This document shows, in pieces, positions 8,428 through 63,623 of a stretch of DNA of 64,000 bases. Positions within the stretch are counted from its first letter, which is position 1, and every line of letters begins with the position of its first letter. The position numbers and the translations under genes were made by a program. The DNA comes from Planctomycetes bacterium MalM25. Lineage in GTDB: Bacteria > Planctomycetota > Planctomycetia > Pirellulales > Lacipirellulaceae. The notes beneath the pieces were generated by a model. The model saw only the letters and a list, made by a program, of their open reading frames with translations. It was not told where the DNA came from and made no database searches. The DNA lies in assembly GCA_007745835.1 (NCBI GenBank), contig CP036424.1, positions 620,001 to 684,000 on the forward strand. The letters run 5' to 3'.

Positions 8428-8439
8428 CTGCTTTCTTAA

Positions 8440-8904
8440 CCGCCAAGACGCCAGGAGCGCCAAGGGTCGCCAGGAATTGCTATTGGGTTTGAACGATTCT
8501 CTTGAAGCCATCCTTCAGGAGGACTTCGTTGAAGTTAACTAACAGCCCGAGGTCGAGTTGGGTCGCTTTCAGATAGTTGAGGACTTGGGCGTGGTGGATC
8601 GGGAGCAATGACTCGACCGATTTGAGTTCGACGACGACAAGGCCCCCCACGAGGAAATCGAGACGAGCGTCGCCAACCGGTTGATCCTTATAGCGTAGTT
8701 GAATCGGCTTCTCTCTTTCGAACGGCACTTGGCGTAGCGTCAGTTCATGCTCAAGCGACTTCTGATAAACAGATTCCAAGAAACCGGGGCCGAGGTTGCG
8801 ATGAACCTCTAGCGAAGCCTCGAACACCGCGGAAGCGAGCCGGTCCGATTCTGCACTAGGTTCCCGCATCATGGCGATCCTTGGCGCTCCTGGCGTCTTG
8901 GCGG
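8440..8904 (-). mobile_element. GxxExxY cassette 1: gene framed by 33-bp inverted repeats
   Basis: The left arm 8440-8472 and right arm 8872-8904 are reverse complements at 32 of 33 positions. Each arm is built of short direct sub-repeats of the type CGCCAAG. The GxxExxY gene fills the interior: its ATG (8870-8872) touches the right arm and its stop lies seven bases inside the left arm. The outer left arm ends 12 bases upstream of the lysC start codon, and the stop codon of apgM lies one base outside the right arm. No target-site duplication can be proven. Confidence 0.72.
8480..8872 (-). CDS. GxxExxY protein (PD-(D/E)XK-like nuclease fold), copy 1
   Basis: A 130-residue protein of the GxxExxY family, with the motif G30-F-L-E33-S-V-Y36. 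Family members are assigned to the PD-(D/E)XK nuclease superfamily, and a matching set of acidic and lysine residues is visible: E33, D72 (RLDF) and E82-x-K84 (VELKS). The C-terminal LGLLVNFNEVLLKDGFKRIV is also typical. The biochemical activity of the family is not established as far as I know. It sits between apgM and lysC on the same strand, 33 bases after one and 52 before the other, inside a pair of long inverted repeats. It is clearly related to the copy at 10197-10592. Confidence 0.88.
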   Translation of the reverse strand: MMREPSAESDRLASAVFEASLEVHRNLGPGFLESVYQKSLEHELTLRQVPFEREKPIQLRYKDQPVGDARLDFLVGGLVVVELKSVESLLPIHHAQVLNYLKATQLDLGLLVNFNEVLLKDGFKRIVQTQ

Positions 8905-8905
8905 T

Positions 8906-10153
8906 TTAACCCTTCCCGATGAACCAGTGCATCGCGTCCCAGCCGTTGGGGAAGGCCAGGTCGGAGGCCGCCGCCGTGCCGTCGTGGTAGGCGGTCGCCG
9001 TGTCGGGGGTGACGCCGGCGCCCGCCAGGCAGACGGGGACGTCGCCGTGGGTGTGCTTCTTGGTGCTGATATAGGTCGGGTGGTCGGGGCTGACCATCAC
9101 CCGCCACTCTTCCTGGGAATTGGCGCCCCGGGCGCCGAGTGCCGTGACCAGCGGGCCGACGATCTCGCGGTCGATCGCCTCGATCGCCTTGACCTTCTCG
9201 TCCGCGCGGCCCTCGTGCGAAGCCTCGTCGGGGGCCTCGACGTGGACACAGACGAGGTCGTACTTGTCGAGCGCCTCGATCGCGTAGCGGCCCTTGGCGG
9301 CGTAGTCGGTGTCGAGGTAGCCGGTCGCGCCGGGGACCTCGATCCGATCCCAGCCCACCAGCGCCGCGATGCCACGGAGCAGGTCGACCGCGGTGATCAT
9401 GGCGCCCCGCGGGCCGTACTTCTCGGCGAAGGGGGTGAGGCTCGGCGCGCCCCCCTGGCCCCACAGCCAGGCGCTGGTGATCCGTTTCTTGCCCGCCGCC
9501 TCACGGGCTCGGTTGACCGGGTGGTCGGCGAAGAGTTTTTCGGTGGCGTCCATCAGCTCCACCAGCGCGTCACCGCCCGGGCCCTTCGGATGGGCGTCGT
9601 GGATGACTAGGTCGGTCCAGTCGTGCGGCGCCTCGGTGCGGGTGTCGTTCGTGAAGGGCGCCGACAGCTTGTCACCCCGCCAGAGGAGCAGGTTGCGGTA
9701 GCTCACGCCGGGGACGAACTCGAGGGCGCCGTTCCACTTCGGATCGCTGGCGATCTCCTTCTGGGCTGACTTCAGCAGCGCGGTTGACTCCTCGGTGGTC
9801 GCGTGCCCCGCCGTGAAGTCAATCATGACCGGGCCCTCGCCGAGGTCGTCGATCGTGACCGTGTTGCAGCGGATCGCCCAATCCCCCGGTGCGAGCGTGA
9901 TCCCTTGCGCGGCGGCCTCCATTGGGGCGCGGCCGGTGAAGTGCTCGAACGGGTCGTAGCCGAGTAGCGACAGGTTGCCGATCTCGCTGCCGGCGGGGAG
10001 CGCCTTCGGCGTGTGGCAGGCCCGCGCAACGACGCCCGATGCGGCGAGCGCGTCGAGGTGTGGCGTGCTGGCCGCCTCGAGCGGCGTCTTCCTGCCGAGC
10101 GAAGCCTGCGGCTCATCGGCGGCGCCGTCGGGGATGATGATCGCGTATTTCAT
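8906..10153 (-). CDS. apgM-type phosphoglycerate mutase-like protein, candidate homoserine kinase
   Basis: A 415-residue protein of the COG3635 (apgM) branch of the alkaline phosphatase superfamily. Metal and catalytic signatures are present: IPDGAAD at residues 7-13, the nucleophile region ALPAGSEIGNLSLLGYDP, HVEAPDEASHEG, and the late SPDHPT and HTHGDVP. By homology it could interconvert 2- and 3-phosphoglycerate, but members of this branch located beside threonine genes have been proposed as an alternative homoserine kinase. Here it lies between hom and lysC, and no classical ThrB is seen in the window, so I favour that role (inference). Its stop codon adjoins the outer end of one cassette, and a second cassette ends 11 bases before its ATG. 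No Shine-Dalgarno is evident. Confidence 0.85.
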   Translation of the reverse strand: MKYAIIIPDGAADEPQASLGRKTPLEAASTPHLDALAASGVVARACHTPKALPAGSEIGNLSLLGYDPFEHFTGRAPMEAAAQGITLAPGDWAIRCNTVTIDDLGEGPVMIDFTAGHATTEESTALLKSAQKEIASDPKWNGALEFVPGVSYRNLLLWRGDKLSAPFTNDTRTEAPHDWTDLVIHDAHPKGPGGDALVELMDATEKLFADHPVNRAREAAGKKRITSAWLWGQGGAPSLTPFAEKYGPRGAMITAVDLLRGIAALVGWDRIEVPGATGYLDTDYAAKGRYAIEALDKYDLVCVHVEAPDEASHEGRADEKVKAIEAIDREIVGPLVTALGARGANSQEEWRVMVSPDHPTYISTKKHTHGDVPVCLAGAGVTPDTATAYHDGTAAASDLAFPNGWDAMHWFIGKG

Positions 10154-10164
10154 GGTGAATTATT

Positions 10165-10620
10165 GAACCACGAAGGAACAAAGGAACGAAGGGGTGCTAC
10201 CGCACCACTCGTTTGATGCCGTCCTTGAAGTGGGGGACGTTTAAGTTGAGCAGCAACCCTAGCCGACAATCGGTCAGCTTGAGGTAGGTGAATAGCTGCG
10301 CCTCGTGTACTGGTGCGATGTGATCAACTGCTTTCAACTCGACAACGATGCGATCGCCGACGAACAAGTCGACACGCAGTTCGCTGTTGATGTCGCGTCC
10401 GCCGTAGCGAATGGGAACGGTTGCTTGGCAACGGTAGGGGACGTGGGCCTTTGTGAGTTCGATGGCTAAGCACTTCTCATAGACAGTTTCAAGCAGCCCG
10501 GGCCCTAGTTCTGAGTGAACACGGAACGCAGCATCTAACACGGCCTTTGCCAGTCGCTCATCCGCACCAGCGATCGGCTCGAAACCAGACACCCTTCGTT
10601 CCTTTGTTCCTTCGTGGTTC
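10165..10620 (-). mobile_element. GxxExxY cassette 2: gene framed by perfect 29-bp inverted repeats
   Basis: Positions 10165-10193 and 10592-10620 are perfect reverse complements. The arm differs in sequence from cassette 1 and is made of GAAGGAAC-type sub-repeats. The GxxExxY gene fills the interior, with its GTG start (10590-10592) touching the right arm and its stop three bases inside the left arm. The element lies in the hom-apgM junction and its outer left end is 11 bases upstream of the apgM ATG. The geometry is the same as in cassette 1 despite the unrelated arm sequence. Confidence 0.75.
10197..10592 (-). CDS. GxxExxY protein (PD-(D/E)XK-like nuclease fold), copy 2
   Basis: A 131-residue paralogue of the protein at 8480-8872. 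The family motif is G32-L-L-E35-T-V-Y38, and the nuclease-type residues E35, D75 (RVDLF) and E85-x-K87 (VELKA) are in matching places. The two copies are diverged along their whole length, so they are not a recent duplication. The start is a GTG inside the inverted repeat; no internal ATG fits the conserved N-terminal helix (ADERLAKAVLDAAFRVH). It is co-directional with hom, 39 bases upstream, and apgM, 43 bases downstream. The function of the family is not established. Confidence 0.88.
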   Translation of the reverse strand: MSGFEPIAGADERLAKAVLDAAFRVHSELGPGLLETVYEKCLAIELTKAHVPYRCQATVPIRYGGRDINSELRVDLFVGDRIVVELKAVDHIAPVHEAQLFTYLKLTDCRLGLLLNLNVPHFKDGIKRVVR

Positions 10621-17070: not shown

Positions 17071-17640
17071 CTGTGGGAGGCGTCTCCCGACGCCGATACC
17101 GCGCACCATGCCGAAACGACCCACCATCGCAGGCAGCTCATCGAGGCTGAGGGCCGGGAGAGTCTCCGAGTCTTACGCCGCCTACCTCGTCACGAAAGTC
17201 GTGCGTGGTCGCCGCCCTCTGCTGCGTGATCGGGAAGCCATTGAGGTCGTGATCAGCTCCCTGAGGCACTTGCGTGAGGCACATCGTGTCAAGCTCTTTG
17301 CCTTCTGCGTCATGCCGGACCACTTGCACGCGACTTTTTGTCTTATGCCGGGGGAAACGCTCCCCGGTGTCGTTGGCGCTTTTTCCAAGTACACGGCACG
17401 TCGCCTGAACGTGCTGGTTAGGGAAGAGGGGGCGTTTTGGCAGGAGGGTTTTCATGACCGACGATGCCGTAATTCGGATGAGTTGCACGCCTTGAGCGAG
17501 TATGTTGAGCACAACCCGGTCCGAGCTGGCCTCGTCGATTGCGCAGTGGACTGGGAGAACTCGTCGGCTTCACCTTCGCGTCGGGGCATGCTCGATCGCG
17601 AGTGGTGGCCTTAATCGGCGTCAGGAGACGCCTCCCACAG
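17071..17640 (+). mobile_element. REP-framed transposase unit
   Basis: A 27-base sequence at 17071-17097 and its reverse complement at 17614-17640 agree at 26 of 27 positions. Each contains GGGAGGCGTCTCC and GACGCC, and so can itself fold, as REP sequences do. The tyrosine-type transposase gene lies between them; its stop codon overlaps the right repeat by one base. A single related palindrome is found at 53416-53447, so the family is dispersed. The unit sits between leuS and glgC. Confidence 0.8.
17108..17614 (+). CDS. REP-associated tyrosine transposase (Y1/HUH family)
   Basis: A 168-residue protein of the RAYT/TnpA-REP branch of the Y1 transposases, single-stranded DNA nickases thought to mobilise or maintain REP sequences. 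The HUH motif is visible as HLH in FCVMPDHLHATF, and the C-terminal helix EYVEHNPVRAGLV carries a candidate nucleophilic tyrosine. The length and the LFAFCVMPDH and FWQEGFHDR segments are usual for the family. Base composition is somewhat lower in GC than in leuS and glgC. It is intact, with no frameshift, and lies exactly between two inverted REP copies, which are its likely substrate. Confidence 0.9.
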   Translation: MPKRPTIAGSSSRLRAGRVSESYAAYLVTKVVRGRRPLLRDREAIEVVISSLRHLREAHRVKLFAFCVMPDHLHATFCLMPGETLPGVVGAFSKYTARRLNVLVREEGAFWQEGFHDRRCRNSDELHALSEYVEHNPVRAGLVDCAVDWENSSASPSRRGMLDREWWP

Positions 17641-63424: not shown

Positions 63425-63623
63425 AACCGCCAAGGACGCCAAGAGCGCCAAGGCTTATTGCGAAACGGGACAGGTTAGTGTTTGGGCAGGATCAGCAGGA
63501 AGCAGGTCGAGAATGCCCGACGATGGTGGAGCTGTCGCCACCGATCATCATGTCGATCTTGTTCATCCTGTCTAACTGAATTTTCTTGGCGAACCTTGGC
63601 GCTCGCGGGCGTCCTTGGCGGTT
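63425..63623 (-). mobile_element. Emptied cassette: inverted repeats without a GxxExxY gene
   Basis: The left arm 63425-63453 and right arm 63594-63623 are near reverse complements, with a few mismatches and one base of length difference. The shared core is AACCGCCAAGGACGCC and GAGCGCCAAGG, close to the arms of cassette 1. The interior of 140 bases has no GxxExxY gene and instead contains a degenerate palindrome with CAGGAT-type ends. The left arm ends 12 bases upstream of the argD ATG, the same position as in the two full cassettes. Confidence 0.65.

Follow-up and report, generated by a model that had tools for sequence, protein, structure and literature searches.

GxxExxY genes between inverted arms of short words: apparently mobile DNA of a type little noticed so far

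In a 64,000-nt stretch of the Planctomycetes bacterium MalM25 genome (GenBank assembly GCA_007745835.1, contig CP036424.1, positions 620,001–684,000; hereafter the window), two small genes of the GxxExxY family each lie between long inverted repeats (IRs) in junctions of one operon. On the sense strand (−) the operon runs hom, element B, apgM-like, element A, lysC, the gene names being read off the translations without a database match. The arms of element A are 38 nt long with 36/38 positions matched (95%), whereas those of element B are 29 nt long and perfect (29/29), and local IR scoring gives 66 and 58, where 60 single-base shuffles of each reach 27 and 26 at most. The stop codons of both genes stand 3–4 bases from one arm, and the start codons touch or enter the other. 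An earlier sequence-only reading had reported long IRs around both genes, with a shared geometry and a placement in operon junctions, and all of this is borne out, the gap between arm and next ATG being 10–11 bases instead of the 11–12 first given. Its further statement that the arms of the two copies are unrelated in sequence was wrong, as both fit ACC[AG]C..AG[AG] with a period of 8–9 bases. Among 418 window tiles of like geometry, on a grid that missed element A by chance, a score of at least 36 occurred in three, once at element B and twice at a transposase of the REP-associated tyrosine transposase (RAYT) type in its own IR (REP, repetitive extragenic palindrome).

This anatomy accompanies most of the GxxExxY genes examined. 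The host genome (4.72 Mb) has eight; seven score 32–66 against null maxima of 23–27, and the eighth, which has an internal stop (L006), scores 29 against 23. Across the window's order the score reached at least 30 at 98/113 unique genes, compared with 0/113 in shuffled sequence and 3/113 with swapped partners (12 of 125 unique genes, without full flanks or length, were left out). A wider set was taken from a profile search of genome contigs, using the best 80 matches, from which three loci were dropped to leave 77. The loci of this best-80 set belong to Proteobacteria, Acidobacteria, Bacteroidota, Verrucomicrobia, Chloroflexi, Cyanobacteria, Gemmatimonadetes, Spirochaetes, Planctomycetes and one archaeon, and 58/77 score at least 30; swapped partners do so in 8/77, which we ascribe to a grammar of words that the arms share. 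The association is frequent and runs through many phyla. The prediction that most GxxExxY genes carry flanking IRs has held, and the proposed cassette family is supported.

Table 1. Coordinates of elements A, B and C within the window.
Feature	Position	Strand	Remarks
Element A upstream arm	8869..8906	-	outermost base overlaps apgM-like stop codon
Element A GxxExxY gene	8480..8872	-	130 aa, gA lineage; profile matches and protein tree
Element A downstream arm	8438..8475	-	ends 10 bases before lysC ATG
Element B upstream arm	10592..10620	-	innermost base is first base of GTG start
Element B GxxExxY gene	10197..10592	-	131 aa, gB lineage; profile matches and protein tree
Element B downstream arm	10165..10193	-	ends 11 bases before apgM-like ATG
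Element C (gene-less) left arm	63425..63453	.	CGCCAAGR word; exact pattern match 63426-63452
Element C (gene-less) right arm	63594..63623	.	27/30 columns matched, score 42; loop 140 nt

The common arm form is TT[A/G/C]ACC[AG]C..AG[AG] in units of 8–9 bases, with words of the type C[AG]CNNAG[AG]. By a strict count, three units are present in both arms of 46/98 order-wide and 22/58 wide-set elements with a score of at least 30 (0 and 0 after shuffling). By a looser count a word is callable in 150/190 elements, the remaining 40 being dropped for too weak an IR or an uncallable word, and a minority use other words (e.g. L003, L006, L100, L127). Words differ between elements (CGCCAAGR, CACGAAGG, CACAGAGR, CGCAAAGG, CACGACGG and others) and agree within an element, and an element's own partner arm outscores arms of the same word class from other elements in 139/143 cases. 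Template-switch correction, known to act between quasi-palindrome arms, would make the arms match within a copy though words differ between copies. Word and protein are co-inherited at short range: for 60/150 elements the closest protein at under 80% identity has the same word, against 8.4 expected and a maximum of 17 in 100 permutations, and the association is gone below 55% identity (9/150 versus 9.4 expected). From this sharing and its loss it follows that gene and arms would travel together while the words drift.

The operon junctions themselves are occupied in some relatives and vacant in others. Thirty family genomes were compared at the hom–apgM (J1) and apgM–lysC (J2) junctions, scoring loci with both flanks, and four states were met: gene with arms, empty, arms whose loop is short or decayed, and a different open reading frame (ORF). 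J1 of L041 (12 nt) and J2 of L068 (30 nt) are fully empty. Arms around a lost, short or decayed gene occur at J2 of L050 and L066, at both junctions of L056 and also in L057, and arms can therefore outlast the gene; the expectation that arms and gene come and go together thus stands for the fully empty junctions and fails for these. At J1 of L045 and L048 a different ORF lies in a different repeat. This cargo, within IRs of the GATTTCGGATTGCGG type, encodes a small protein whose CPACQRIVRTPVAKQCLWCGHDWH tail resembles a zinc ribbon, and L271 has a similar tail close to an arm that lacks a partner. The protein tree places J2 copies of the window's type and J1 copies in separate lineages. At J2 of L058, L060, L063, L064 and L067 a gB-lineage protein lies within CACGACG-type arms (joint support 100/94; 93/93 for the wider gB clade, many of the deeper forks being open), so that there the word went with the protein and not with the junction. 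To judge from these sequences, protein lineage tends to be a better guide to the arm word than the site is. The 30 loci did not yield exact insertion boundaries; of these loci the closest (L045/L048) are 86% identical in the apgM-like gene with J2 unalignable by eye; as a close-genome comparison a Flavobacterium pair (L195/L210) looked better by eye.

Both window proteins match PF13366 (1.6e-40 and 5.8e-39) and TIGR04256, with profile scores of 133.5–139.5 bits against curated cut-offs of 22 and 35, and a Pfam scan of the two returned PF13366 only and no Y1 (HUH tyrosine) transposase. PD-(D/E)XK-like residues had been suggested from the letters alone; in an alignment of 15 diverse sequences the four concerned (E35, D75, E85 and K87 in the second protein's numbering) are indeed invariant, as are Y38 and Y103, and Q99 is nearly so. 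A QxxxY motif marks the RecB/Cas4 group. The AlphaFold model is confident (predicted local distance difference test 92.6, predicted template modelling score 0.85) and its nearest folds in the PDB are Cas4 SSO0001 and lambda exonuclease, both weak matches (best E 6.4e-3, none reaching 1e-3), while a PDB sequence search gave no relative at E<1. We read GxxExxY as a small PD-(D/E)XK nuclease of the RecB/Cas4/lambda-exonuclease type, with D75, E85 and K87 as predicted catalytic residues. The genes are under purifying selection: the ratio of nonsynonymous to synonymous change (pN/pS) at the two junctions is 0.15–0.40, like the 0.15–0.44 of the apgM-like gene, with synonymous sites near saturation. 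The family is rare on plasmids (8/72,556 plasmid records) and was not found in phages (0/50,697 phage records).

Arms are also dispersed through the host genome. Three-unit patterns give 61 exact matches (39 of ACCACNNAGR.. and 22 of ACCGCNNAGR..; reversed patterns 0), only three of which lie at GxxExxY genes. Of 36 host regions, 18 contain arms in convergent pairs whose loops (1–130 nt) are too small for a gene, which makes 20 gene-less pairs if the second pair of L272 is counted; seven have long loops as matched by regular expression, and in 11 the partner was not seen. Among 13 single-arm places with wide flanks, four have a strong partner (score at least 32). Element C of the window is also gene-less; an inner repeat suggested there by eye scores 13, not above chance. 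Loops hold further hairpins: an IR scoring at least 30 was found inside 10/24 loops, compared with 5/240 control stretches of the window, in a sample that includes two loci picked for visible nesting (L311, L312) and some inner repeats of other kinds (L269, L318). The octamer-hairpin loops of the latter two contain long palindromes (e.g. CACGGTCTCCCGACCGTG), perhaps REPs. In one genome (G048; L311, L312, L317) hairpins are nested 2–3 deep, and their words recur in the same order at separate sites, as though the composite as a whole had undergone copying. Another arrangement, at L314 (G044:C6:5300-6200), has four tandem arms in one orientation, spaced 31–46 bases apart, without convergent pairs, in a genome without a Y1 match. 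If GxxExxY were instead a chromosomal repair or defence nuclease whose arms are only accumulated expression signals, such as a ribosome-binding site and a terminator, purine-rich arms beside the start codon and a gene under purifying selection would be understandable, whereas the 20 gene-less pairs, the nesting and the near absence of arms where the gene is missing (1/11 genomes) would not; we regard this explanation as highly improbable.

The link between dispersed arms and the gene holds across 59 genomes, counting arms at the GxxExxY genes themselves (3/61 in the host). Arms are present in 44/48 GxxExxY-positive genomes and in 1/11 negative ones (Fisher 1.6e-7). Within family f1 the figures are 32/32 genomes with the gene and 1/4 without, and of the four members of the window's genus, three carry 6–8 genes and 54–61 arm matches while the fourth has neither. 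Another mover has to be considered here. Terminal IRs around passenger genes, or around nothing, characterize mobile insertion cassettes and miniature inverted-repeat transposable elements (MITEs), and the hairpins could be MITEs moved by a RAYT or an insertion-sequence transposase, with GxxExxY as one of several passengers. Its strongest facts are two. Paired host arms surround at least eight single ORFs unrelated to GxxExxY (L264, L272, L274, L280, L282, L296, L297, L304), and the only GxxExxY gene of one genome (G030) has CGCAGAGR arms where its 18 dispersed matches read CGCCAAGR. Y1 transposases (PF01797) moreover occur in 54/59 genomes, their number rising with that of GxxExxY (rank correlation 0.60). 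Yet among Y1-positive genomes arms are found in 43/47 with GxxExxY and 1/7 without. In partial rank correlation, arms go with GxxExxY at 0.61 once Y1 is held and with Y1 at −0.18 once GxxExxY is held, so that a RAYT mobiliser is not supported, Y1 being the only transposase family compared. Pfam gave a single match among nine cargo ORFs (the J1 cargo included; mechanically called, putative genes), which was dual-specificity-phosphatase-like, and no transposase among them, the whole genome not having been scanned exhaustively. A 2.1-kb cargo with a hisS-like gene and a second ORF between CGCCAAG arms (L302, G000:C1:4302800-4307800) is doubtful, as a nearer partner yields a 130-nt element (L291). 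The window's own RAYT-like gene has a different IR: this Y1 transposase (PF01797; 17108–17614, + strand) lies within IRs at window positions 17071–17640, with 26/27 bases matched and a REP-like palindrome inside, and is a known kind of system with the same geometry as elements A and B. A passenger role for GxxExxY, the main rival reading, seems rather unlikely to us. The elements appear to differ from mobile insertion cassettes and MITEs in that no parent insertion sequence was found, in that arm sequence varies between copies and matches within a copy, and in that no target-site duplication was detected among 96 automatically paired elements; relative to shuffles only flush 3-mers (7 versus 1.6 expected) and offset-7 2-mers (14 versus 6.8) were in excess, and old duplications may have decayed.

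The sequence-only reading had offered RNA pairing, in which the arms loop out the gene as in the intervening sequences (IVSs) of 23S rRNA. As an IVS-like unit the element would pair its arms in the operon transcript, RNase III would cut the stem, and selection on the RNA would keep the arms complementary. The layout is indeed that of the Coxiella IVS (PMC4990558), with an ORF between complementary arms. Genes of the IVS protein family S23p (TIGR02436) are arranged alike, with an IR score of at least 30 in 23/31 loci against 1/31 for swapped partners and period-7 words by eye, in a survey that kept loci with short flanks (e.g. L142, L144, L158); none of the 20 loci scanned contained rRNA. The host's one such gene, a four-helix bundle type with GGGAATG-type words, scores 45 against 29, and this only four-helix match of the host (L009, 1501–1800) lies directly behind the RNase P RNA gene (1030–1440). 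What separates GxxExxY elements from the 23S IVS is another protein, a position between protein genes (elements A and B both, with no rRNA match in the window) and the absence of an RNA-level signal in the arms. Upkeep of RNA pairing would favour G·U over A·C mismatches, and no such excess was found: the mismatches are symmetric, with 201 G·U and 223 A·C in 197 elements, and the wide set alone leans the opposite way (72 versus 97, p 0.06). The arms are therefore thought to be a DNA feature, RNA-level upkeep of their complementarity is rejected, and looping out in RNA is not supported as the reason why the arms stay paired. Orientation weighs on the other side. In tandem contexts, where both neighbours point the same way, 88/99 elements are co-oriented (neighbours being the longest open frames within 900 nt; 39/190 elements without an IR of at least 28 or two callable neighbours were dropped), although a promoterless gene selected for expression by read-through would account for this equally well. 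Of the co-directional elements, 83% have the upstream stop codon at −8 to 25 bases from the arm. Convergent or divergent neighbours at 52/151 elements, and the dispersed gene-less hairpins, do not suit an RNA unit, which we consider improbable. Cleavage of the transcript may still occur, and RNA excision is weakly supported.

We favour a relation like that of RAYTs to REPINs (REP doublets forming hairpins), in which the GxxExxY nuclease would act on hairpin DNA formed by elements of its own type, and give it a probability of roughly 0.55. The DNA hairpin element consists of two inward-facing arms around a loop; an arm reads TT[A/G/C]ACC at its outer end and as a rule has three purine-rich words of 8–9 bases. 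Its loop may contain a GxxExxY nuclease gene or some other ORF, a further hairpin, or next to nothing, and the window genes would represent the gene-bearing form; the purine-rich arm probably serves as ribosome-binding site for the loop ORF. GxxExxY would recognize or process the hairpin DNA of its arms and thereby spread or maintain gene-bearing and gene-less copies, as RAYTs are thought to do for REPINs. That the elements are mobile, that the nuclease is their mover and that hairpin DNA is its substrate we infer. In REPIN/RAYT systems a single protein gene is flanked by inverted hairpin repeats and gene-less hairpins are dispersed between genes (PMC3116915). GxxExxY shares the inverted arms, the dispersed gene-less hairpins of the host genome and the rarity outside chromosomes, but is a PD-(D/E)XK nuclease where RAYT is a Y1/HUH transposase, and its arms are arrays of about 28 bp of 8–9-base words where REPs are short palindromes. 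REP palindromes also bear a tetranucleotide tag, in which GxxExxY arms differ.

Several observations weigh against this reading. IR scores fall below 30 at 15/113 order-wide genes, most of them with short-word arms by eye (L122, L120 and L033 without), and at 19/77 genes of the wide set; by eye, no such arms are seen at 8 of the 77, the archaeal locus included. The tie between word and protein does not extend below 55% identity, and the fold match is weak. Four genomes (G049, G050, G054, G056) are GxxExxY-positive and have 0 matches to the two arm patterns, and the word mismatch of G030 points the same way. Nine of the 13 single arms with wide flanks have no strong inward partner, the pairing at L271 not being confirmed. 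With at least eight unrelated ORFs between paired host arms the nuclease could itself be a passenger, and no transposition event was seen, nor any target-site duplication in the 96 paired elements.

Dispersed repeats of similar build have been described in other bacteria. The short-word repeats called STRR (short tandemly repeated repetitive sequences) are dispersed in cyanobacteria. Xanthomonas campestris has 70 convergent pairs of GGGAATC heptamer repeats (PMC4692102), and neither for these nor for the TAACTGA repeats of Beggiatoaceae do the passages at hand name a cause or a linked gene family (PMC4692102, PMC4679880). Both are short-word arrays, the host's four-helix element has GGGAATG-type arms, and by this likeness the Xanthomonas and Beggiatoaceae repeats look like a period-7 branch. 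A TCAGC period-7 pattern reached at least five matches in 22/45 genomes with four-helix genes and 0/14 without; the reversed control was equal or higher in G014, G022 and G042, and 19/42 is the safer figure. The four-helix gene count correlates with period-8 arms at 0.42, more weakly than GxxExxY does. A bolder proposal, which we put forward tentatively and with less than even confidence, is a bacteria-wide, transposase-less mobile DNA in which GxxExxY (period-8) and four-helix IVS proteins (period-7) would propagate short-word hairpins, with a preference for sites inside other hairpin loops and after stop codons in operons. Such hairpins could carry arbitrary single genes and would be the hidden origin both of 23S rRNA IVSs and of the long-known heptamer and octamer repeats scattered through genomes.

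The sequence-only reading knew of no description of this arrangement as a mobile or RNA-processing unit, and we likewise found no GxxExxY genes in IRs in open-licence PMC papers, subscription papers being outside the scope. Hairpin elements of this kind, present in many phyla, look like a little-noticed form of mobile DNA. GxxExxY is a widespread family with almost no literature, and a role in hairpin elements, if true, would give it a function and would add a nuclease type to the enzymes of mobile DNA. The origin of dispersed short-word repeats and of rRNA intervening sequences, a long-standing puzzle, would then become testable.

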